Positions 6,728 through 19,087 of a stretch of DNA of 58,621 bases are shown piece after piece. The notes beneath the pieces are model-generated. The model saw only the letters and a list, made by a program, of their open reading frames with translations. It had not been told where the DNA came from and searched no databases. The DNA is from Verrucomicrobium sp. BvORR034 (GTDB lineage Bacteria; Verrucomicrobiota; Verrucomicrobiia; Verrucomicrobiales; Verrucomicrobiaceae). The stretch lies in NCBI RefSeq assembly GCF_000739635.1, contig NZ_BATQ01000015.1:1-58621 (forward strand). The letters are read 5' to 3'. Every line of letters begins with the position of its first letter. Position 1 is the first letter of the stretch. The position numbers and the translations under genes are program-made.

Positions 6728-7606
6728 ATGGAATCACGGGCTTTGGCCGTCTTTGCGGAAGTCGTGCGGCAGAAGAGCTTCTCTGCGGCGGGCAAGGTCT
6801 TGGGGTTGACCCAGCCCACGATTAGCAAGGCGGTGCAGCAACTGGAACACGACTGCGGTTGCCTCCTTTTTGACAGACAGGGGAAGAAGTTCAGCCTGAC
6901 CGCCGCTGGCGAGGTGGTGTACCAGCGTGCGCAGGTCATCCTCAAGGAACACGAGCGCCTTCGAGACGAACTCGCTGGCATTCATGGGCTGGAGCGTGGC
7001 CGGCTCCGGTTGGGGTTGCCTTCCTTGGGCAGCAGCCTGCTGTTCGCGCCTCATGTGGCCAGCTTCCGCCGCCAGCATCCAGGGATCGAGATTGAGCTCC
7101 ATGAGCAGGGCAGCTTGCATCTCCAGGAGCGGGTACGCGCCGGCGAGATTGAGGTGGGAGTGTCTTTGGGCCCGGTGCCAGAGGAGTTCGACTGGCAGCC
7201 GGTGAGTGATGAGCCGCTGGTGGCGCTGCTGCCTGCAGGACATCCCCTGGAGCGAGAGGCCAGCCTGGAACTGGCGGATCTGAAGGACACACCGTTCGTA
7301 CTTTTCGAGCCCGGTTTTTCCCTGAACGCGGTGATCCTCGATGCCTGCCGGATGCGGGGTTTTGTTCCCGTGGAAGCGGCCCGCAGCGGGCACGTGGATT
7401 TCATCATTGCCTTGGTAGCGGCGGGACTGGGCGTGGCGCTTCTGCCCAGGCTGATTGTGGATTCGAGGGAACAACGCGTCTGCACCGTGGTGCCGCTGCG
7501 TGATGAAGACCTGCGCTGGCGTCTGGGTTTGATCTGGAGGCGGGGCGGGGATCTGTCGCCAGCCGCGAGGCGCTGGCTGGAGGTGGTACGGGAAGGGGTG
7601 GGGTGA
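6728..7606 (+). CDS. LysR-family transcriptional regulator (CidR-like by position)
   Basis: A 292-residue regulator with a LysR winged helix-turn-helix at about residues 4-62 (ALAVFAEVVRQKSFSAAG, then LTQPTISKAVQQLE) and a substrate-binding-type effector domain (GRLRLGLPSLGSSLLFAPHV, VSLGPVPEEFDWQPV, AAGLGVALLPRLIVDS). I chose the ATG at 6728 because the family motif starts there and the upstream ATG at 6689 lies inside a likely operator. It is divergent from lrgAB, the same pairing as cidR with cidAB, so it probably controls that operon in response to a small carboxylate. The effector is not known from sequence. Confidence 0.92.
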   Translation: MESRALAVFAEVVRQKSFSAAGKVLGLTQPTISKAVQQLEHDCGCLLFDRQGKKFSLTAAGEVVYQRAQVILKEHERLRDELAGIHGLERGRLRLGLPSLGSSLLFAPHVASFRRQHPGIEIELHEQGSLHLQERVRAGEIEVGVSLGPVPEEFDWQPVSDEPLVALLPAGHPLEREASLELADLKDTPFVLFEPGFSLNAVILDACRMRGFVPVEAARSGHVDFIIALVAAGLGVALLPRLIVDSREQRVCTVVPLRDEDLRWRLGLIWRRGGDLSPAARRWLEVVREGVG

Positions 7607-7739
7607 AGTGCCAGGCGTCTGGCGGCCTGTGCTGGAGAAGCCAGGGGAGCGCACGCATCTTGCGTGCTGTTTCCGGCATCTTGCCGGGAACGTCAGTCAG
7701 CGGGTGACCTCGCGAAGTGCAACCAAACCTTCGAACGAT

Positions 7740-7895
7740 GTGGAGGTGTTGATGGCGATGGGGAGAAAGCGGATGCTGTCGGCTTTCCCACCTGATCCTC
7801 CTTCGCGGAGGTGCCCAGGGTTGACTCGTCTTGCCTTGCGGGACTCGTCCAACCACTGGGCTGTGCTAGAAATCCCCTTCGGGGATTAACTGCGG
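7740..7895 (+). repeat. Intergenic structured repeat, family A copy 1
   Basis: About 150 bases closely match 16465-16613. Three hairpins are seen: CCTCC-ttcgc-GGAGG (7797-7811); a larger one closed by CCCAG (7814-7818) and CTGGG (7856-7860) with inner GGTTG/CAACC pairs; and AATCCCC-TTC-GGGGATT (7871-7887). The last stem differs from copy 2 at two base pairs, and both differences are compensated. Reading frames differ between the copies because of an indel, so it is not a gene. Confidence 0.85.
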
Positions 7896-7917
7896 ACTGA
7901 GCAGGTGCCATCCACTC

Positions 7918-8074
7918 GCTCAGTTGAAGTTCTTCCTCGAAGAGGATGGGGCTACAAGCCCAACGTTGACGAGCTTCCAGCGAGTCTACGTTGGGTACGG
8001 GTGTGGGAGGTCTTTACTCCGAAGGAGTTGTGGCGGTCTGAGAGCCTTTCGCATCCAAGGTTCCTTGGCAGGCA
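7918..8074 (-). repeat. Intergenic structured repeat, family B copy 1
   Basis: Inverted relative to copy 2 at 18928-19087, with a core of about 80 bases nearly identical. Hairpins: TCCTC-GAA-GAGGA (7934-7946); CCCAACGT (7959-7966) paired with ACGTTGGG (7988-7995) around a 21-nt loop; and ACTCC-GAA-GGAGT (8016-8028). Spacers are 12 and 20 nt. Orientation is set by the loop motif, which reads ACTCGCT...GCTCG on the minus strand. Confidence 0.85.
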
Positions 8075-8187
8075 CAAACTTTCCCGTATGCGATGTCTGT
8101 ATCGTGGAGTGCAACCACTTGCCCAAGAGGTGCTATGGCCGTGGACGGGCTCCGATCAAGGACCAGGGTTTAAGAATATAACGTGAG

Positions 8188-8235
8188 CCGCGAAAGCGGT
8201 GTCGAGCCACCGGCACTCCAAGACGCTTCGCGAAG
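8188..8235 (+). repeat. Hairpin cluster resembling the tripartite repeats
   Basis: CCGC-GAAA-GCGG (8188-8199) is followed by a partly paired segment (GTGTCG with CGGCAC, one T-G wobble, 8199-8216) and the palindrome CTTCGCGAAG (8226-8235). The order of small, middle and small hairpins recalls families A, B and D, but there is no second copy in the window to prove that it is a repeat. Confidence 0.35.
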
Positions 8236-8389
8236 TTGAAGGCGGTGAGGCTGTTGGCTGACAGCAGTCGGTTGGTGGTCAGCTCGTCTGGCTCATTCTC
8301 TTCTGCTTCGTCAGCAGACGCGCGACTGAACGGGGATGGAATCCCCTGCTCCTTTTTGCAAGGGTCGCGCGCCTCCTGGCGGAGGTAAG

Positions 8390-10582
8390 TTATTTCATCT
8401 TCACCAGCACACGCAGGCGCTTGTAGAGGTAAGTGGAGGCATTCTGGGTGAAGGTCCAGTCCTTGGTCTGGCCGGGGCTGTTGCCAATGCCGATGTCGGC
8501 CTGAGGGCCGGCACCCCAGTGGTTGATGGCGATCAGCGTGGTCTTGGCTCCGTGGTGGTTCACCTGCATGGAGCCATAGCCGTCAACCAACTCGGTGAGC
8601 TGGTCGCCGGTGTCAAACTCGGCGTCGGAGGCGCCGGGCACGGCGGCGGTGTTGGCAGGGCCGTAGTTGTCGGGCCAGAACTCGAGGTTCAGGGCATCAC
8701 CTGCCGGACCGTTGGGCACGCCGGGCACGTTGCTCAGGATGACGGCGTTTTTCACCGGGATCTGGAATTTGGCTCCAGAGGCGGAGGTGGGCACGCCCAG
8801 CTTCTTGAGCTCGCTGGTGAAGCCATCCACGGAGACGAAGCAGTACTTGGCGGGGCTGGAGGGCTCCTTGAGTTCGAGGAGCCACGCCACCTTTTCCACG
8901 GTACCCTTCAGGGTGTCGGCGTTATTCACCTCGTAGGCGGGGGTGTTGCTGAGCTTGGACAAGTCCAAGTCATAGAGCACCTGATAACCCGCAGTTTCAG
9001 GGAGCTTCTTCGCCAGCAGATCAAAGACGGAAACCTTGCCCCCCTGAAAGGGGTAAGCAGGCCATCCGGCCCCGTTCACGAGGTTAGGTTCGGCGAGCTT
9101 GTTCCAGCCAAAGCGGACTGCGGTCGGCTTGGGCACCCCGGGGGCAGTGAGGACCACGGCGTTGCCTTCAATGGTCGCCTGGGCTTTCACATAGGCCGTG
9201 TCCTCGCCAATCACCTCGAACCAGTCGAGAGGCTGGCCATTGCGGGACTTGAGTCCGCCGTCGGCGTGGTCAAAAGTCACCCGCAGTCGGCCTTCTTCAG
9301 GCTGTACGGATTTGACGATGGGGCCGGAGGCAACCACGTCCGTCTTGCCATAGGTGTGCTTGAGCGCCTGCTGGGCCAGACGGCGGCCCACCTCTTGTTT
9401 GTTCTTGGGGTGGATGTCGTTCAGCTCGGCAATGTCTGTGGTGGGTACGATGCCGGTGTTGGGGATGGAGAGCGCCGCGTACTGGGCCTCCCAGAAGGAA
9501 GCCAGGACCTCTGGCGGCTCCTGGCCATACTGGAACGGGGCGATCTGCACGTAGTAGAACGGGAAGTCGCCTTGACCCCAGGCCTTGCGCCAGCCACCGA
9601 CGAGGGCCTTCATCTTCTCAGTGTAGAGGGTGCCTTCGCCGTGGTTGGATTCGCCCTGGTACCAGATGGCTCCGCGGATGGGAAAGCCCACATAGGGATG
9701 GATCATCGCGTTGTAGAGCGTGGTTGGATCGCCATGGGTGGCAAAAGGTGTCAGCTCGCCGGGGAAGGTTGGGCTGGGCGAGACACCGTTGCCAGAATCC
9801 AGCGCGCCGGGGACGGTTTTGGTCCAGGCTTCAATGTCTGCCACATGCTTCAAGACGCGCTCGCGGTACTGGGGATTCCCAGGTTGTTTGAGCTTCACCT
9901 GGGCGGCGAGGTCACGGAGCCGCTCCAGCCCCTCGAAGCCAGCGGCCGGAACCCAGGGTTCAATCCGGGTGCCACCCCAGGAGGCGTTGATCAAGCCCAC
10001 CGGCACCTTCAGGTGCTTCTGCAGCTCGCGGGCCATGAAATAACCGGCGGCGGTGAACCCGCCCACCGTGGCCGGGCTGGCGGTCTGCCAGGAGCCGTTG
10101 AAATCATCCTGGGGCACGGGCTTGGGAACCAGCGGCACTTTGATGTGGCGGATGGTGGGATCATTGGCCGCCGCGATTTCCTGGGCACTGTTCAGACTGT
10201 TTTGTACTACCCACTCCATGTTGGACTGGCCGGAGCAGAGCCAGACCTCTCCCACCAGGATGTCGCGCACCGCGACGGTGTTGGAGGCGGTCACGTTCAA
10301 CTCCAGGGGGCCGCCACCGGCAGCCAGGGCTGGCAATTCCACGCGCCACTTGCCGTCCTTGCCCGCAGTGGTTTCCACCGGAGCTGTCTGGCCCAGTTTT
10401 ACCGAAACCTTTTCGCCCGGGTCCGCCCAGCCCCAGACTGGGATCTTCACGTCCCGCTGGAGCACCATGTGGTCCGTGAAAATATGCGGCAGTTTGACTG
10501 CGGCCGGGGCGAGGGTGGGCAGGAGGCCCGCCAGCGCCAGCAGCGCCAGGGATCCGCGTTGAGAGAGGGTGAGTGAGAGCAT
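8390..10582 (-). CDS. Sialate O-acetylesterase-like secreted esterase
   Basis: A 730-residue exported SGNH-type esterase. A signal peptide occupies about residues 1-28 (SLALLALAGLLPTLAPAAV). Family marks follow in order: FTDHMVLQRDVKIPVWGWADPGEKV (beta domain), LCSGQSNMEW with the likely nucleophile Ser120, VGLINASWGGTRIEPW, RGAIWYQGESN, and the DIHPKNKQEVGRRLA block with the catalytic Asp-x-His. Such enzymes remove acetyl groups from sialic acids or plant polysaccharides such as xylan. The protein is longer than usual: after about residue 500 comes an extra domain with no motif I recognise. It forms a possible operon with the secreted protein encoded upstream, 107 bases away. Confidence 0.88.
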   Translation of the reverse strand: MLSLTLSQRGSLALLALAGLLPTLAPAAVKLPHIFTDHMVLQRDVKIPVWGWADPGEKVSVKLGQTAPVETTAGKDGKWRVELPALAAGGGPLELNVTASNTVAVRDILVGEVWLCSGQSNMEWVVQNSLNSAQEIAAANDPTIRHIKVPLVPKPVPQDDFNGSWQTASPATVGGFTAAGYFMARELQKHLKVPVGLINASWGGTRIEPWVPAAGFEGLERLRDLAAQVKLKQPGNPQYRERVLKHVADIEAWTKTVPGALDSGNGVSPSPTFPGELTPFATHGDPTTLYNAMIHPYVGFPIRGAIWYQGESNHGEGTLYTEKMKALVGGWRKAWGQGDFPFYYVQIAPFQYGQEPPEVLASFWEAQYAALSIPNTGIVPTTDIAELNDIHPKNKQEVGRRLAQQALKHTYGKTDVVASGPIVKSVQPEEGRLRVTFDHADGGLKSRNGQPLDWFEVIGEDTAYVKAQATIEGNAVVLTAPGVPKPTAVRFGWNKLAEPNLVNGAGWPAYPFQGGKVSVFDLLAKKLPETAGYQVLYDLDLSKLSNTPAYEVNNADTLKGTVEKVAWLLELKEPSSPAKYCFVSVDGFTSELKKLGVPTSASGAKFQIPVKNAVILSNVPGVPNGPAGDALNLEFWPDNYGPANTAAVPGASDAEFDTGDQLTELVDGYGSMQVNHHGAKTTLIAINHWGAGPQADIGIGNSPGQTKDWTFTQNASTYLYKRLRVLVKMK

Positions 10583-10689
10583 GGTAAGGAGATGACAGTG
10601 AACGGGCGTGAGGTCCCGGAATCGCCGACCATACAGAAATCCATGGCCGAACAGTACAAAAATCCTCGGGACAGAAACGAAGGTCCGGA

Positions 10690-11976
10690 TCAGAGGAGGC
10701 CTTCCCGGCGGGCCTTCCAGTACATGGCAATGTGATAGACGATCCCGCAGCTGGACATGTGGGCGTAGTCAGACTGAACCAGGAACTTCCGCATCCACTC
10801 CTGCTGGGCGACGGGGATTTTAGGATCGTTCACCATCATCGGCACCAGTGCGGACTCGCCCGCCTCGCGGATGTTGTGCCAGACCTTGCGGTACTCGCCC
10901 CACTGCGGGTTCATGTAGCCTTTCTGGTTCTTCCATTCCGGAACGTGACGCCAGTCGGGGCCAACCATGGCCAGCATCTCCGGGCTCATCTGGGCGAGGC
11001 GTGCTCCCGTTTCGGCCGTGCGTTTCATGGCAATTTCGCCCACGTGCACCATCGTTTCGCGGATGCGCGTTTTGAGGGCGGCATCGGTCTCAAGGTGATA
11101 GAGCACCTCGAGCGAGCACTGCATCTGGAGCATGGCGTAGGCGGGTTTCTTCTCGTCGGGATGGGCCGATTGCTCCACGGCAGGCACCACGTAGCGGCGG
11201 TATTCCTGATGAAACGCTTCGTTGCCGGTGACATCCCAGGCCACGGCATAGATCATGGGCAGGCGGGCCGCTTCATGAGCCTGCACCTCCCACATCTTGC
11301 AGATGCCGAGCCCGCAGGGTTGGTCATCGGCGCGCAGGAAGTCGTAGCCATTCTCCGGAGTGACGTTCTTGATCATCCGGTTGGCGATGGCGGTCATGAG
11401 GCTGCGGATCTCCACCTTGGTCGGCTCGTCGCAGAGCGGGCTGTGATAGTAGCGCCAGAGACCATGCACGCAGTGGGTGACTTGGTCCCGGGAAGAGTTG
11501 ATGTACACGCCTCCGAGATAGTTCGGGCTGATGCCCCGGGCGACGAAGCCTTCTTTGCCATGCACGGTGACGCAGGCCTTGATCCCGCTGAAAACGCGAC
11601 GCGCGTCGGCTTTCAGCGAAGTCTCTTGTGTGACGTCATACCGGTCGCTCAGCACGCTGAGCATCGCTCCCCCCAGGATCATGCAGTCTTCCATGCCCGT
11701 GCCGTAGCCGCAGGGGTTGGGGTACTGGCGTTTCACTTCGTCTGCGGTCGGCAGATGCGTGAGTTCCTGGCCGGGTTCGTAGCTGCTCAGGTAGTCGTAA
11801 AAGAGCTCGGTCTTGGGGTTGAAAAACCGCTGCCAGGCGATGTTCCAGGCCTTTTCTGCCTGCGGAGCGAGCTGTTGGGGGGATTCATTCACGAGCGCCG
11901 CGCCTGAAAGCGTCGCCGCAGAGAGGGTGACCAGAGCAAAAACGGAGATGAGCAGAGACAAGAAGGGGTTCGGCAT
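10690..11976 (-). CDS. Secreted protein of unknown function, probably helical
   Basis: A 428-residue protein with a signal peptide at about residues 1-27 (LLISVFALVTLSAATLSGAA). The rest is rich in aromatic and His residues and contains repeated helical stretches, e.g. AWNIAWQRFFNPKTELFYDY, GYGTGMEDCMILGGAMLSVL and HCVHGLWRYYHSPLCDEP. This pattern resembles the (alpha/alpha)6-barrel of carbohydrate-active enzymes that act on unsaturated or rhamnogalacturonan oligosaccharides, but no family-defining catalytic motif is certain. It lies upstream of the sialate esterase gene on the same strand and divergent from the PVC cytochrome protein, which fits a role in polysaccharide use. Treat the function as unknown. 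Confidence 0.75.
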   Translation of the reverse strand: MPNPFLSLLISVFALVTLSAATLSGAALVNESPQQLAPQAEKAWNIAWQRFFNPKTELFYDYLSSYEPGQELTHLPTADEVKRQYPNPCGYGTGMEDCMILGGAMLSVLSDRYDVTQETSLKADARRVFSGIKACVTVHGKEGFVARGISPNYLGGVYINSSRDQVTHCVHGLWRYYHSPLCDEPTKVEIRSLMTAIANRMIKNVTPENGYDFLRADDQPCGLGICKMWEVQAHEAARLPMIYAVAWDVTGNEAFHQEYRRYVVPAVEQSAHPDEKKPAYAMLQMQCSLEVLYHLETDAALKTRIRETMVHVGEIAMKRTAETGARLAQMSPEMLAMVGPDWRHVPEWKNQKGYMNPQWGEYRKVWHNIREAGESALVPMMVNDPKIPVAQQEWMRKFLVQSDYAHMSSCGIVYHIAMYWKARREGLL

Positions 11977-12129
11977 AGGGGAGAGGGAATCAAACGGCAG
12001 GTGAAAGGGTTTTTTGACCGGAAGGCGTCCACTACGGAGTGGGAAGAGGAAAAAATCCTTGTTTTTGATGTCTCAACCCAGTCAGCATCCGCCATTGCTC
12101 CACCCAAGCCGCCTTTACTCAATTCTTCC

Positions 12130-15100
12130 ATGATCCGAAAACTCATCCCCTTCACCGTTTTCGTCGCTCTGGCGGCGTCTGCGGTCGCCCAGGAGACCTT
12201 GCACTTTCCCGCCAAATCCGGTGTGGGAGCGGGCAATGGCAAACGTGTCGTCCTTGTCTCGGGAGACGAAGAATACCGCACGGAGGAGAGCTTCCCCATG
12301 CTCGCGAAGATTCTCAGCCAGAAGCACGGTTTCGACTGCACGGTGCTCTTCGCGATCAATCCCGAGGGCGGCTACATCGATCCCAACTTCCAGAAAAACA
12401 TCCCGGGCACCGCGACTTTGGACAAGGCGGATCTCCTGATCATTGGCACCCGGTTCCGCCAGTTGCCTGACAACCAGCTCGCCCCCTTTGCCGCGTACTT
12501 GAATGCGGGCAAGCCAGTGATCGGCTTCCGCACCGCCACACATGCCTTCACGGGCGGAGCTGCCACCGGGGACTTCAAGTGGGCGGAGTTCGGTCTCAAG
12601 GTCTTGGGCGAGAAATGGGTGAATCACCACGGTGCCCACGGCAAACAGGGCACCAAGTCGGTGGTGGAGCAGGCCAATGCCTCCAATGAGGTGCTGCAGG
12701 GGGTGGGTGAGATCTTTGCGCCTACGGATGTGTATGGCATCGCCAATCTGGACCAAAAGGCGGCGACCATCCTCCTGCGTGGAGCGGTGACGGAGTCGCT
12801 CGATCCCACCTCGAAAGCGATCGAAGGACCCAAGAACAATCCCATGATGCCGCTGGCCTGGCTGCGGGAGTACACCGCCCCCAATGGCACGGCCAAAGGG
12901 CGCGCCTTCTGCACCACGCTCGGTGCTTCCTCGGACTTCGTGGATGAAGATCTTCGCCGGCTCGCGGTCAACGTTTCCTATGCCCTGCTCGGACTCAAAG
13001 TGCCGGACAAGGCGGATGTCGCCTATGTGGATGCCTTCGAGCCGACCTTCTACGGCAACAACAGCAGCGATTACTACAAGACGCTGAACCGGAAGCCCGG
13101 TGACTATGTTCTGGGCAAGAGCCCGGCAACCGGTAAAGGCGCTGCCAAACCGGCGGCCAAGCCTGCGGCCGCGAAGCCCGCAGCAGAGAAGAAGGACGAG
13201 GTGCCTCCGCACGCCTTCAATGCCGAGCCTGCCCCCGCCAAGGCCAAACGTGATCAATCCGTGGCAGCTCCTGCCAAGGGCGAACGCATTGTGCTGGTCG
13301 GCAACGGTCTGGCAGAGCGCGACGTTTACTACGGTCGGATCGAAACGGAACTGAACCTGCGCTATCCTGAGAAGGAGTTGTTCTTCCGCAACATGGGCCA
13401 CGTGGGAGACACCCCCGGATTCCGCCCGCACCCTGCCCGCGTTTCGCAGTGGGCCTTCCCCGGGGCTGAGAAGTTTCATCCAGACAAGAACGTGCATCAT
13501 GGCAAGGGGTTCTTCCCCACGCCGGACCAGTGGCTCACCCATCTGAAAGCCGACACCATTGTCGGGTTCTTCGGTTACAATGAGTCCTTCGACGGTGCCA
13601 GCAAGGTGGGCAACTTTGAAGCGGAGATTGATGCCTGGGTGGCTCACACCCTGAGCAAGGCCTACAACGGCAAAGAAGCCCCCCGTGTGGTGCTCGTGTC
13701 TCCGATCGCCTATGAAGATCAGAGCGCCAAGCGCGATCTGCCGGATGGCCATGCAGAGAACGCCAACCTGCTGCTCTACGCCGCCGCCATGGAGAAGGTG
13801 GCCAAGAAATACGGGGTGACCTATATCGACCTTTTCACGCCCACCAAGGAGATCTATGCCAAGGGTGGACCGGTCTTCACCACGGGTGGTTTCATCCCCA
13901 CCAGTGAGGGTTACAAGACCATCGCTGACGTGCTCGCCACAGGCCTCTATGGCCATCAGTCCCGCGTCTCCAAGGCAGATCCGGAGAAAGTGCATGAAGC
14001 TGTTCAGCAGAAGCAGTGGTTCTGGAACACGGACTACAACATCCTCAACGGAGTGCACACCCACGGTCAGCGGTACAATCCCTATGGCCCGCAGAACTAT
14101 CCGGACGAGGTGAAGAAGTCCCGAGAGATGACCGCGCTGCGCGACCAACTCATCCATGACCTGGCCAGCGGCCGGAAGAACGACCTCGTGGTGGATGATT
14201 CCAAGACGCATGTGCTGCCTCCGGTTCCCACCAACTACCAGCCGAGCGCCAAGAACGGCAGTGAGAAGTATCTGTACGGCGATGAGGCGCTCAAGACCCT
14301 GTCGGTGCCGGAAGGCTACAAGGTGGAGCTCTTTGCCAGTGAGAAGGAGTTCCCCAATCTGGCCAACCCCATGCAGCTCTCCTTCGACGACAAGGGTCGT
14401 CTCTGGGTGGCCGTGATGCCGACCTATCCCCACTATCGTCCCGGCGACGCGTTGCCGAACGACAAGCTCCTCATCTATGAGGACACCAACGGCGACGGCA
14501 AGGCGGACAAGGAAACAGTTTTTGCGGATCACCTCCATCTGCCCATCGGGTTCGAGTTCGCCCCGGAAGGCGTCTATGTCTCCCAAGAGCCCAACCTCGT
14601 CCTGCTGCGCGATACCAATGGCGATGACAAGGCCGACAGCTCCGAGATCATTCTGGGCGGGTTTGACTCGCACGACACCCACCACGCGATCAGCGCTTAC
14701 ACAGCGGATCCCAGCGGTGCCTTCATCCTCTGTGAAGGGGTGTTCCTGCACTCCAATGTCGAGACCCCTTATGGCCCGGTGCGCTGTGTGGACGGCGGTT
14801 TCCTCCGCTACAGCCCGCAGCGCGGTCATCTGGAGCGCACGGCGCAGCTTTCCATCCCAAACCCCTGGGGAGTGGTGTTCGACAAGTGGGGCCAGGATTT
14901 CTTCCTGCACACCTCTGGTCCGAGCATGAACTGGATGCTGCCCGTCTCGGTGAAGCCCGCCTTCGGTAGCAAGACCCCTTCGACCCCGGACCTCATCCCC
15001 AAAGGACAGTCGGTCCGCCCCACGACCGGTCTAGAGATTGTTTCCTCACGCCACTTCCCGGATGAAGTGCAGGGCGATCTTATCCTCTGCAACGCCATCG

Positions 15101-16338
15101 GCTTCCTGGGCATCAAACAGCACCAGATCCAGGACGAAGGCACCGGCTGGAAGACCTCCTTCCGTCATGACTTGTTGAAGAGCACGGACGGGAACTTCCG
15201 CCCGGCGGATTTGGAGTTTGCCCCGGATGGTTCATTGTATGTGCTGGACTGGCACAACGTCTTGATCGGTCACATGCAGCACAACGCCCGTGACCCGCTC
15301 CGCGACCACGTGCATGGCCGCATCTACCGCATCACCTATCCCTCCCGCCCGCTGGTAAAGCCAGCCCAGGTGGCAGGAGCCTCCGTGCAGACCCTGCTCA
15401 ACAACCTCAAGGAGCCTGAACTGCGCACCCGCTACCGCTCCCGCCGTGCCCTGCGCAGCCATCCGGCGAGCGAGGTCCTGCCAGCGGTGAAGGCCTGGGT
15501 TGCCGGGCTCGACAAGAACGACGCACAGTACGAGCACAACGTGCTGGAAGCCCTCTGGGTGACCTGGGGCATGAACGAGGCGGATGAAACCCTGCTGCGT
15601 CAGACGCTTAATGCCAAAGACTTCCACGCTCGCGCCGGCGCGGTACGGGTTCTGAGGTATAACACCCATCGTGTGGCGGACCATGTGGCCCTGCTGGAGA
15701 AGGCGGCCGCCGATGAACACGGCCGCGTGCGTTTGGAAGCGATCGTCGCGGCCTCCTGGCTGCCCAACACGGCCGCTGCCAAGAACATCGTCGCCATCGG
15801 TTCCAAACAACCGCTGGATGAGTGGAGCAAGAACGCCGCAAAGACGGCCGCCGACCGGCTTGCCGGGGTGGCAGAAGTGGCCGCACCGGAGCACCCTGTG
15901 ATTGCGGCTCCGGCCGATCTCTCGCCCGAGGCGAAGAAGCAGTTCATGCTGGGCCAGGAAGTTTACTTCCGTGAAGGGCACTGCACCACCTGCCACCAGC
16001 CCCACGGTGGTGGCCTGGATCCTGCCTTCCCCTCGCTTCAGAAGAGCCCCTGGGTCACTGGGGACCGGGATCGCCTGATCAAGCTGGTGCTCTACGGATT
16101 GATCGGACCCATTGAAGTGGACGGCAAGCAGTACAACGGCCAGGTGCCTATGACCCCCTTTGGCGGCATGCTGAAGGACGAGGAAGTTGCGGCGGTGATC
16201 ACGTTCGTGCGCAACCATTTCGGCAACAAGGCCGAACCGGTGACCACGAAGGACGTGAAGGCCATTCGCGATGCCAATCCTGGACGCATGATGTTCTACA
16301 CGGTTGAAGAGCTGCTGAAGCAGCATCCGATGAAATAG
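12130..16338 (+). CDS. Multidomain PVC-type dehydrogenase/cytochrome c protein with ThuA and SGNH domains
   Basis: A 1402-residue exported protein. I start at the ATG at 12130, which opens a signal peptide (MIRKLIPFTVFVALAASAVA). Domains in order: ThuA-like (about 35-280; RVVLVSGDEEYRTEESFPML, VIGFRTATHAF); a Lys/Ala/Pro-rich linker (about 334-378); an SGNH hydrolase-like domain (about 384-615; ERIVLVGNGLAERDVYYGR, GFFGYNESFDG); a PVC-type beta-propeller dehydrogenase domain (about 720-1075; LSVPEGYKVELFAS, DTNGDGKADKETVF, YVLDWHNVLIGHMQ); HEAT-like helices (about 1080-1260); and a C-terminal cytochrome c with C1285-T-T-C-H1289. It is likely a periplasmic redox enzyme for sugars or alcohols, with electrons leaving through the heme. 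Substrate is unknown. Confidence 0.92.
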   Translation: MIRKLIPFTVFVALAASAVAQETLHFPAKSGVGAGNGKRVVLVSGDEEYRTEESFPMLAKILSQKHGFDCTVLFAINPEGGYIDPNFQKNIPGTATLDKADLLIIGTRFRQLPDNQLAPFAAYLNAGKPVIGFRTATHAFTGGAATGDFKWAEFGLKVLGEKWVNHHGAHGKQGTKSVVEQANASNEVLQGVGEIFAPTDVYGIANLDQKAATILLRGAVTESLDPTSKAIEGPKNNPMMPLAWLREYTAPNGTAKGRAFCTTLGASSDFVDEDLRRLAVNVSYALLGLKVPDKADVAYVDAFEPTFYGNNSSDYYKTLNRKPGDYVLGKSPATGKGAAKPAAKPAAAKPAAEKKDEVPPHAFNAEPAPAKAKRDQSVAAPAKGERIVLVGNGLAERDVYYGRIETELNLRYPEKELFFRNMGHVGDTPGFRPHPARVSQWAFPGAEKFHPDKNVHHGKGFFPTPDQWLTHLKADTIVGFFGYNESFDGASKVGNFEAEIDAWVAHTLSKAYNGKEAPRVVLVSPIAYEDQSAKRDLPDGHAENANLLLYAAAMEKVAKKYGVTYIDLFTPTKEIYAKGGPVFTTGGFIPTSEGYKTIADVLATGLYGHQSRVSKADPEKVHEAVQQKQWFWNTDYNILNGVHTHGQRYNPYGPQNYPDEVKKSREMTALRDQLIHDLASGRKNDLVVDDSKTHVLPPVPTNYQPSAKNGSEKYLYGDEALKTLSVPEGYKVELFASEKEFPNLANPMQLSFDDKGRLWVAVMPTYPHYRPGDALPNDKLLIYEDTNGDGKADKETVFADHLHLPIGFEFAPEGVYVSQEPNLVLLRDTNGDDKADSSEIILGGFDSHDTHHAISAYTADPSGAFILCEGVFLHSNVETPYGPVRCVDGGFLRYSPQRGHLERTAQLSIPNPWGVVFDKWGQDFFLHTSGPSMNWMLPVSVKPAFGSKTPSTPDLIPKGQSVRPTTGLEIVSSRHFPDEVQGDLILCNAIGFLGIKQHQIQDEGTGWKTSFRHDLLKSTDGNFRPADLEFAPDGSLYVLDWHNVLIGHMQHNARDPLRDHVHGRIYRITYPSRPLVKPAQVAGASVQTLLNNLKEPELRTRYRSRRALRSHPASEVLPAVKAWVAGLDKNDAQYEHNVLEALWVTWGMNEADETLLRQTLNAKDFHARAGAVRVLRYNTHRVADHVALLEKAAADEHGRVRLEAIVAASWLPNTAAAKNIVAIGSKQPLDEWSKNAAKTAADRLAGVAEVAAPEHPVIAAPADLSPEAKKQFMLGQEVYFREGHCTTCHQPHGGGLDPAFPSLQKSPWVTGDRDRLIKLVLYGLIGPIEVDGKQYNGQVPMTPFGGMLKDEEVAAVITFVRNHFGNKAEPVTTKDVKAIRDANPGRMMFYTVEELLKQHPMK

Positions 16339-16362
16339 CTGTGCTGTAGTTGTTTTGCGCGG

Positions 16363-16401
16363 CCCGCTTCGCCATCGTCAGGTGGTTGAAGCGGGTTGTT
16401 T
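16363..16401 (+). terminator. Rho-independent terminator after the PVC cytochrome gene
   Basis: CCCGCTTC (16363-16370) pairs perfectly with GAAGCGGG (16388-16395), with inner CCA/TGG pairing possible in the 17-nt loop. The stem is followed by TTGTTTGTTATT. It lies 24 bases after the stop codon. Confidence 0.65.
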
Positions 16402-16464
16402 GTTATTGGGGACGAAAAGGTGTGGTCTCCAACAGTGCCTGCCGAGGAATTTGGCGGGGCTGAC

Positions 16465-16613
16465 GTGGAGGCGTTGATTGCGGTGGGGAGAAAGCAGATG
16501 CTGTCGGCTTTCCCACCTGATCATCCTCCGCGGAGGTACCCAGGGTTGACTCGCTTGAGGCTCGTCCAACCACTGGGCTGTGCTACAGATCCCATACTGG
16601 GATCAACTTCGGT
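16465..16613 (+). repeat. Intergenic structured repeat, family A copy 2
   Basis: Closely matches 7740-7895. Hairpins: the perfect palindrome CCTCCGCGGAGG (16525-16536); CCCAG (16539-16543) with CTGGG (16573-16577) plus inner GGTTG/CAACC; and GATCCCA-TAC-TGGGATC (16588-16604). Upstream, GAAAGC and GCTTTC (about 16488-16512) make a further imperfect stem. The loop of the larger hairpin carries ACTCGCTTGAGGCTCG, shared with families B and D. Confidence 0.85.
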
Positions 16614-16913
16614 CTGAGGCGGGCACCTCAAGGTGGTTCCTTGGTAGCCACCCCAAAACGCGCGCGATTGGTCGGTTCTCCTCGCATATTTCCCGGTATG
16701 TGGTGATGTGGCCGGGAGAGAGGGGCATAGGGCCAAGGGGAACGCTGGGATGAATGGTGGCGGGGCGTTGGGCAGGTGAAAGACGATCGCGGGATGACGC
16801 CGTAGACGCTTCAGTTAGTGTCTCCTCACGTCGTCAGCTACGCCGGTGTTGAGAGTGGTCTGGCAGAAGGGAGTGGAGCTGGAGCTGTTGTTGCTTGAGG
16901 CATGCTGATGGGA

Positions 16914-18927: not shown

Positions 18928-19087
18928 TGCCCGCCAAGGAACCTCAAGGGGCGATCACGAATCAGACCGCCCAAACTCCCCTTCGGAGTAAATTCAACAC
19001 TCGCACCTACCCAACGTAGACTCGCTGGAAGCTCGCCAACGTTGGGTTTGTAGCCACATCCTCTTCGAGGAAGAGCTTCGACCGAGC
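18928..19087 (+). repeat. Intergenic structured repeat, family B copy 2
   Basis: Reverse-complement match to 7918-8074. On the plus strand: ACTCC-CCTTC-GGAGT (18975-18989), 20-nt spacer, CCCAACGT (19010-19017) paired with ACGTTGGG (19039-19046) around a 21-nt loop, 12-nt spacer, TCCTC-TTC-GAGGA (19059-19071). The loop holds ACTCGCTGGAAGCTCG. It fills most of the gap between the WalJ gene and the divergent AsmA-like gene. Confidence 0.87.

Follow-up and report, generated by a model that had tools for sequence, protein, structure and literature searches.

A stretch of 58,621 nucleotides from Verrucomicrobium sp. BvORR034 (positions 1 to 58,621 of contig NZ_BATQ01000015.1; hereafter the window, meaning the whole stretch analysed) carries two copies, A1 and A2, of a repeat whose third hairpin (H3) differs between them by paired changes in both arms of its stem. 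We propose that H3 probably belongs to a non-autonomous, three-hairpin DNA element resembling repetitive extragenic palindromic (REP) sequences. The element would owe its spread to a Y1 (HUH) single-strand transposase of the subclass 1.2 type, with which it is matched. The repeat is present in high copy number with a conserved fold, lies inverted around divergent transposase genes in several phyla, shows divergence correlated with that of the proteins and is polymorphic at individual sites. From these observations we infer transposition.

Pairing in the third hairpin of a dispersed repeat

The first-pass annotation of the window read H3 as AATCCCC-TTC-GGGGATT at 7871-7887 in A1 and as GATCCCA-TAC-TGGGATC at 16588-16604 in A2, and these letters are exact. 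The outer pair is A-T in A1 and G-C in A2, and the innermost is C-G and A-T, with both arms altered in each case. The surroundings are near-identical, as had been stated (91% over 92 nt; 86% over 58 nt with the hairpin included), and A1 (165 nt) and A2 (157 nt) share no reading frame because their lengths differ by 8 nt. The paired changes between the two copies are real. Their description had left out the loop, which also differs (TTC in A1, TAC in A2); the two double changes are therefore linked and may represent a single event. To call them direct evidence that the fold matters was too strong, because arms and loop change as a block, and hairpin exchange or template switching in a palindrome gives the same picture. 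The part of the claim that stands is that pairing is maintained, which many copies support.

We aligned 30 copies from the same genome and compared the seven-pair H3 stem with 500 shuffles. Of 207 H3 cells, 95.7% were paired, and sliding the partner column by 1-3 positions reduced pairing to 31-64%. Twenty cells had changed on both sides (shuffle mean 4.9) and the covariation score was 0.280 compared with 0.094 in shuffles, neither value being matched in any of the 500. Two of the five measures stayed within the range of the shuffles, the changes being confined to two of the seven stem pairs. Double changes affected 2 pairs (308 of 500 shuffles as high), and 6 further pair types were counted (385 of 500).

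Searching 60 more genome stretches enlarged this set to 169 nhmmer hits in 122 sequences, or 125 copies after removal of sequence duplicates, 110 of them with a complete H3 (770 stem cells). Watson-Crick pairs filled 703 cells, G.T 16, A.C 16 and other combinations 35. All four Watson-Crick types occur at the outer pair (GC 36, CG 29, AT 21, TA 9); the innermost pair is CG in 68 copies, AT in 16, TA in 12, GT in 2 and CA in 10, and the pair next to it CG in 81 and TA in 25. The many uncompensated mismatches that the first-pass annotation had named as evidence against the fold are absent, yet 51 of the 770 cells are mismatched, including 25 A.A cells at pair 140-154, mostly in a subtype reading CATCCTC..GAGGAAG, and the 10 innermost C.A cells. 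From the 89 copies whose second part exceeds 75 letters we built a tree that ignored the hairpin columns, and on it counted 36 pair-to-pair double changes, 10 single changes to a paired state and 17 to an unpaired one. Both partners changed on one branch in 40 of 64 inferred changes, compared with 49 of 559 for 42 non-partner column pairs. H3 pairing is maintained across copies.

H3 is one of several hairpins within a longer unit, and the third of a three-hairpin repeat. Copies in the window follow the order H1, about 21 nt, H2, 10 nt, H3 (counted on the sequence, with the ends of H1 set by eye); in family A, that of A1 and A2, an extra small hairpin sits between H1 and H2. H2 and H3 together fold as single-stranded DNA on either strand, at z between -3.9 and -4.5; this fold and the copy number given below show that the hairpin is no product of chance. 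A second family, B, represented by the inverted repeat I1, is homologous to A, with a model match at 7919-8088 on the minus strand and the same hairpin order. The 8.58 Mb genome holds at least 41 blastn matches of the repeat (40 of 117 candidates scored) and at least 131 matches, at E up to 0.01, to a covariance model, R1 (150 of 3570 candidates scored); R1 was built from 30 of the copies, which match by construction. Among 30 neighbour pairs of copies within 400 bp, 21 are convergent, 4 divergent and 5 tandem. Sixteen of the 21 convergent pairs have gaps of 24-57 bp, and convergent neighbour pairs are likewise found in REPINs. The flanks of copies L001-L030 are mosaics with other recurring pieces, among them a CCAAGGAACC/GGTTCCTTGG pair around the unit and an upstream double hairpin of GCACGCATCTTGCGTGC plus CCGGCATCTTGCCGG. 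The features of the window are as follows, G002 being a sister genome from the same genus.

7737..7901, plus strand: copy A1, core modelled by R1 (blastn and model matches)
7757..7792, plus strand: H1 equivalent of A1, about 21 nt before H2, with one mismatch (sequence, ends by eye; inner consensus pairs)
7797-7811, plus strand: small extra hairpin between H1 and H2 of A1 (sequence)
7814..7860, plus strand: H2 of A1, with CT after it and 10 nt to H3; one more outer pair, 7813-7861, forms in the fold (sequence, fold)
7871..7887, plus strand: H3 of A1, the hairpin in question (sequence, consensus pairs, stem statistics, fold)
7932..8028, minus strand: family B copy facing A1 in a REPIN-like inverted pair; H3 7932-7948, H2 7959-7995, H1 8016-8028 (model match and sequence)
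16412..16885, plus strand: 474 bp with A2 where G002 has 52 bp, an empty site (comparison with G002)
16434..16683, plus strand: longer unit around A2, common to many copies in two sister genomes (matches to sister genomes)
16462..16618, plus strand: copy A2, core modelled by R1 (blastn and model matches)
16482..16517, plus strand: H1 equivalent of A2, 21 nt before H2 (sequence, ends by eye; inner consensus pairs)
16539..16577, plus strand: H2 of A2, followed by CT, 10 nt to H3 (sequence, fold)
16588..16604, plus strand: H3 of A2, the hairpin in question (sequence, consensus pairs, stem statistics, fold)
18974..19073, plus strand: second family B copy; H2 19010-19046, H3 19057-19073 (inverted repeat I1, sequence)

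Transposase genes between inverted repeats

A Y1_Tnp search of the genome gave 15 matches. R1 matches adjoin the best of these genes (C185:107899) on both sides, in inverted orientation, and weaker ones lie next to the gene at C95:68043, whose neighbouring repeats are of the family B type. Six short Y1 genes (L031-L036) have flanks with the same hairpin layout in different sequences: a short H1, about 20 nt, a longer H2, CT within about 10 nt, and a short H3. Repeats were seen on both sides of five of the six and on one side of L033, which lies near a contig end. The genes are thus arranged as in a REPtron, where a dispersed palindromic repeat encloses the transposase gene in inverted copies; dispersal of the flanking repeats was checked in this genome and in three others. 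The family-B-flanked gene (L035, G000:C95:68043-68387) has an in-frame TGA and reads YILRQEEHL instead of Y---Q--HH. The enzyme proper to family B may therefore be missing from this genome through loss.

Three of the proteins score 85.2-93.7 bits with Pfam Y1_Tnp. All five intact transposases exceed the cut-off of the NCBIfam IS200 model (56.8-74.3 against 55 bits), and a protein profile reaches IS608 TnpA (2a6m) at E 2.8e-10. The NCBIfam model for REP-associated tyrosine transposases (RAYTs), NF047646, has a cut-off of 80 bits that none of the five reached (23.5-30.3 bits in three, the other two unlisted). At 40-48% identity to L031, the five intact tnpA genes are not near-identical copies of one element. 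Among 86 relatives, Y---Q--HH occurs in 85, WQ in all 86 and DH[IVL]H in 74; the published HUH motif of TnpAY1 subclass 1.2 is DH[IV]H. By the motifs Y---Q--HH and WQ, the proteins are assigned to the subclass 1.2 type. Table 1 of PMC6006769 lists this subclass with a length of 148, DH[IV]H, WQ, YIKNQKEHH, REP 'no' and the phyla Cyanobacteria/Bacteroidetes, and the passages on it describe it as being without insertion sequence (IS) properties, generally with no IS200-type structures at the gene.

The 86 relatives derive from one scan of 84,980 species' genomes with a five-protein alignment, which yielded at least 567 confirmed relatives; the best 80 were kept and joined by the six loci above. 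The query was verrucomicrobial, and the 80 loci are largely from Planctomycetota, Verrucomicrobiota and Bacteroidota. At 78 loci, at least 300 bp could be compared on both sides (starting 30 bp inside the gene). Inverted-flank alignments scored above the 99th percentile of 464 mismatched pairings at 47 of the 78, and direct-orientation similarity exceeded its null at 29, often from clustered repeats. A three-hairpin descriptor at score 17 found the layout on the left at 42 loci, on the right at 44, on both sides at 30 and on either side at 56. The same flanks read inward gave 13, 11 and 3 (left, right, both), and dinucleotide shuffles 0, 0 and 0; these controls weigh more than the raw count because the descriptor was written after inspection of the flanks. 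At score 15 the layout was present on either side at 58 loci and on both at 33 (shuffled, 2 left and 4 right), at score 19 at 33 and 16 (inward left, right and both, 11, 5 and 2) and at score 21 at 18 and 10 (inward 6, 1 and 0). Among 59 loci, the 400 bp adjacent to the gene held hits on the left in 32, on the right in 34 and on both sides in 22, and 400 bp at a distance of 950-1350 bp held 0, 0 and 0. As a further control, seven other Y1-domain loci in our genome gave no three-hairpin hit at score 17 with a slightly stricter descriptor.

Spacing is near-constant, with 18-25 nt between H1 and H2 in 78 of 93 hits and 10-13 nt between H2 and H3 in 85 of 93. Even with the CT requirement taken out of the descriptor, 98 of 154 hits (104 loci) have CT after H2. 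Loci with layout hits are labelled Verrucomicrobiota, Planctomycetota, Acidobacteriota, Armatimonadota, Bacteroidota, Lentisphaeria and a Deltaproteobacteria metagenome-assembled genome (MAG), MAG labels being fallible; in the complete sequence of Bacteroides xylanisolvens XB1A (L142), which belongs to Bacteroidota, one of the two phyla given for subclass 1.2, the layout stands on both sides of the gene. The flanking unit recurs elsewhere in a Gemmataceae MAG (46 matches, many partial) and in Haloferula (19). Protein and repeat similarity were correlated (Mantel, Spearman 0.37, 0 of 500 permutations as high, n=75 loci that had a descriptor hit and were free of stops), with shared ancestry and base composition still contained in this value. 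Beside the transposases of L142, L156 and L092, part of the unit, or whole units, stand in tandem, as if amplified piecewise.

Sister genomes have the same association. The transposase matched 7, 6 and 5 times in G002, G003 and G004, and 17 of these 18 matches had inverted-flank scores above 25.0, a threshold derived from the 78-locus test, where flanks were slightly longer; the exception is a partial match. At score 17 the layout was found on either side of 15 and on both sides of 10. The flanking hairpins of one G002 gene (L230) are identical to those of L077 from Verrucomicrobium sp. BvORR106. R1 model matches occur in 15 of 57 genomes including our own; strong ones are found besides in G002 and G003 only, and the 12 others are at E 1e-7 or weaker. 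Two sites are polymorphic: where the window has 474 bp with A2, G002 has 52 bp and lacks the copy, and in place of 700 bp at A1, G002 has 316 bp with no repeat and G003 a related copy.

Elsewhere in the window, a 1445-aa protein with ThuA, DUF7133 and cytochrome c domains is encoded at 12001-16338, ending just upstream of A2. A series of long plus-strand open reading frames (ORFs) at 22900-47800, including those for an acyltransferase, a group 1 glycosyltransferase and a nickel insertion protein, is perhaps in part a surface polysaccharide region. The same genome also has a second group of Y1-domain genes (L037, L040, L041 and L043) with open frames of 361-368 aa, none of which had three-hairpin flanks at score 17.

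Competing explanations and a possible mechanism

Several observations weigh against a transposase-spread element. At score 17 the descriptor finds the layout on neither side at 22 of the 78 loci, and stricter scores cut the share to 33 and then 18 of 78, with the inward control retaining 11+5 and 6+1 hits. The flanking unit has only 10 matches in B. xylanisolvens. Two of the seven other Y1-domain loci in our genome score 45.0 and 28.5 for inverted repeats over longer, 1.5 kb flanks. Family A departs from the common layout by its additional hairpin. No R1 model match was found in G001, which is of the same genus (76% complete). Deletion in G002 is another way to explain the empty A2 site, where the comparison with that genome revealed no target duplication. 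The 49 copies listed in G003 have no replication-strand bias (27 versus 22 by hand count; right arm 9 plus and 16 minus, left arm 11 plus and 13 minus, taking dnaA at 5.086 Mb and assuming the terminus opposite). G.T outnumbers A.C at two loop-side H2 pairs (102:5) and, in family A, throughout the weak H1 taken together (83:14).

The paired changes might owe nothing to selection, if whole hairpins were exchanged between subfamilies by recombination or if template-switch correction in the palindrome altered both arms at once. We give this explanation real, although lesser, weight. Arms and loop do vary together (GATCCCCGCTGGGGATC in 18, CATCCTCTTCGAGGAAG in 16, AATCCCCTTCGGGGATT in 11 and GATCCCATACTGGGATC in 7 of 100 A-like copies), the flanks look mosaic, and double changes exceed single ones on the tree (36 versus 10 plus 17). 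However, most of the many rarer H3 combinations, each seen once or a few times, are still paired, and the layout persists from phylum to phylum although the sequences are quite different, which exchange within a single genome cannot explain. Exchange can hold for the changes while the fold still matters. Because stems and loops change as blocks, it is likely to account for part of the paired changes, and two copies alone are no proof of selection.

Selection might instead keep an RNA fold, with the repeats acting in transcripts as terminators, mRNA stabilisers or structured RNA, although we consider this improbable. A stable fold with double changes would suit such a role, as would the commonest setting, between convergent genes (19 of 43 scored contexts). 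Gene context was taken crudely from greedy ORFs: of 84 copies scored, 54 overlap an ORF by less than 10% and 25 by at least 90%; the ORFs of this last group may be spurious, the genome being GC-rich. It is the G.T excess in H1 that keeps an RNA role under consideration. By contrast, G.T is no commoner than A.C in H3 (16:16) and is the rarer in the 13 outer H2 pairs (6:15), and both strands fold about equally well as DNA. H3 is thus without RNA-like or strand-specific constraint, and H1 leans to the plus strand. No Rfam family reached its gathering score in the window; the best sub-threshold hit at A1 (7600-8330, E up to 1) was a microRNA family at E 0.022 and 25.6 bits, its gathering score being 94. 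Neither intergenic region has a promoter-like site, and the only terminator-like site, 8277-8293, lies outside the repeats. An RNA role would also leave the inverted arrangement around transposase genes unexplained. The proteins raise another alternative, in which the repeats are the decayed ends of ordinary IS200 insertion sequences, similar to miniature inverted-repeat transposable elements. The IS200 scores of all five intact transposases and the profile match to IS608 TnpA speak for it. Nevertheless, we judge it unlikely: proteins only 40-48% identical to L031 are not copies of one IS, and the flanking repeats are inverted, unlike the same-strand ends of IS200. The motif Y---Q--HH of the proteins moreover marks a subclass described as lacking IS properties in the relevant passages of PMC6006769.

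If the repeat is a single-strand DNA element spread by its transposase, the enzyme would bind H2 as single-stranded DNA, perhaps on the strand reading 5'-H3-AG-H2-H1-3', with the AG at the foot of H2 in place of the AG of the GTAG guide in classical REPs. It would cut in the linkers beside H1 and H3 and move the unit, and H3 pairing would be kept because the copies that fold are those that propagate. TnpAREP cuts at CT, and the AG of GTAG has been proposed, and for one enzyme supported, to select the site, according to the account of it in PMC8266576; this scheme accommodates the AG that is often present, on the complementary strand, at the foot of H2. The G.T excess in H1 and the loop-side H2 pairs favours folding of the plus strand, opposite to the AG-foot strand, and would also fit an RNA.

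The near-constant spacings recall the cleavage distances of IS608, 19 nt on the 5' side and 10 nt on the 3' side. More broadly, three-hairpin repeats might form a distinct and widespread class whose transposases, in several phyla, are the subclass 1.2 proteins, with the AG foot as a short guide and spacings that place H1 and H3 at the cleavage points, a tentative proposal for and against which we see nearly equal grounds. The repeat would then be a minimal single-strand transposon with outer hairpins marking its ends.

Relation to known repeat systems

Judged from the parts of PMC3733652, PMC8266576 and PMC6006769 that describe them, GTAG REPs, bacterial interspersed mosaic elements, REPINs and the REPtrons of RAYTs share with our repeat many dispersed palindromic copies and inverted pairs. 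Further likenesses are the inverted flanking of a Y1 gene, with different transposases having different repeats, and an AG that, read on the complementary strand, often stands at the foot of the central hairpin. By those same accounts, a GTAG REP is one palindrome of 20-40 nt, whereas here three hairpins stand at near-constant spacing, and RAYTs carry Y---NP in place of Y---Q--HH. A GT[AG]G foot is not general among our repeats (CTAC follows H2 in 8 of 93 hits, and GTAG lies 5 nt from H2 in A2), so we rejected a GTAG REP, and the NF047646 scores ruled out a canonical RAYT. By the tests made, the system appears to be neither, even though its arrangement is that of a REPtron. The GTAG repeats of Opitutus terrae are alike in verrucomicrobial host, abundance and inverted dimers; they differ, by their description in PMC3733652, in being single palindromes tagged with GTAG or GTGG.

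The closest proteins are those of TnpAY1 subclass 1.2 (Quentin et al. 2018, PMC6006769), which are alike in Y---Q--HH, WQ, a length of about 147-151 aa and divergent genes; the subclass is entered there as REP 'no', whereas many such genes here are repeat-flanked. Class 3 and subclass 2.6, for which the same source notes 'atypical secondary structures', are alike in having non-GTAG structures at the gene, with high copy number in some genomes. As characterised there, class 3 has the motif YV[VI][AENY]EQ and a CnGA foot and subclass 2.6 has Y---NP, and neither fits these proteins. Among the listed titles and abstract beginnings of the open-licence literature we found no description of a three-hairpin repeat with subclass 1.2, and the literal repeat sequences did not occur in that literature.

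The proteins of subclass 1.2 have been described as relatives of the IS200 transposases with neither IS ends nor REPs, a description that gives them no substrate. Inverted flank repeats in several bacterial groups suggest what these enzymes work on, and the conserved repeat is a testable candidate, one that also suggests why searches for a GT[AG]G foot would miss such repeats. If true, this would account for a repeat family of more than 100 copies in this genome and for its presence in the sisters, and would supply a candidate for an intermediate that links domesticated REP systems to IS200 elements.

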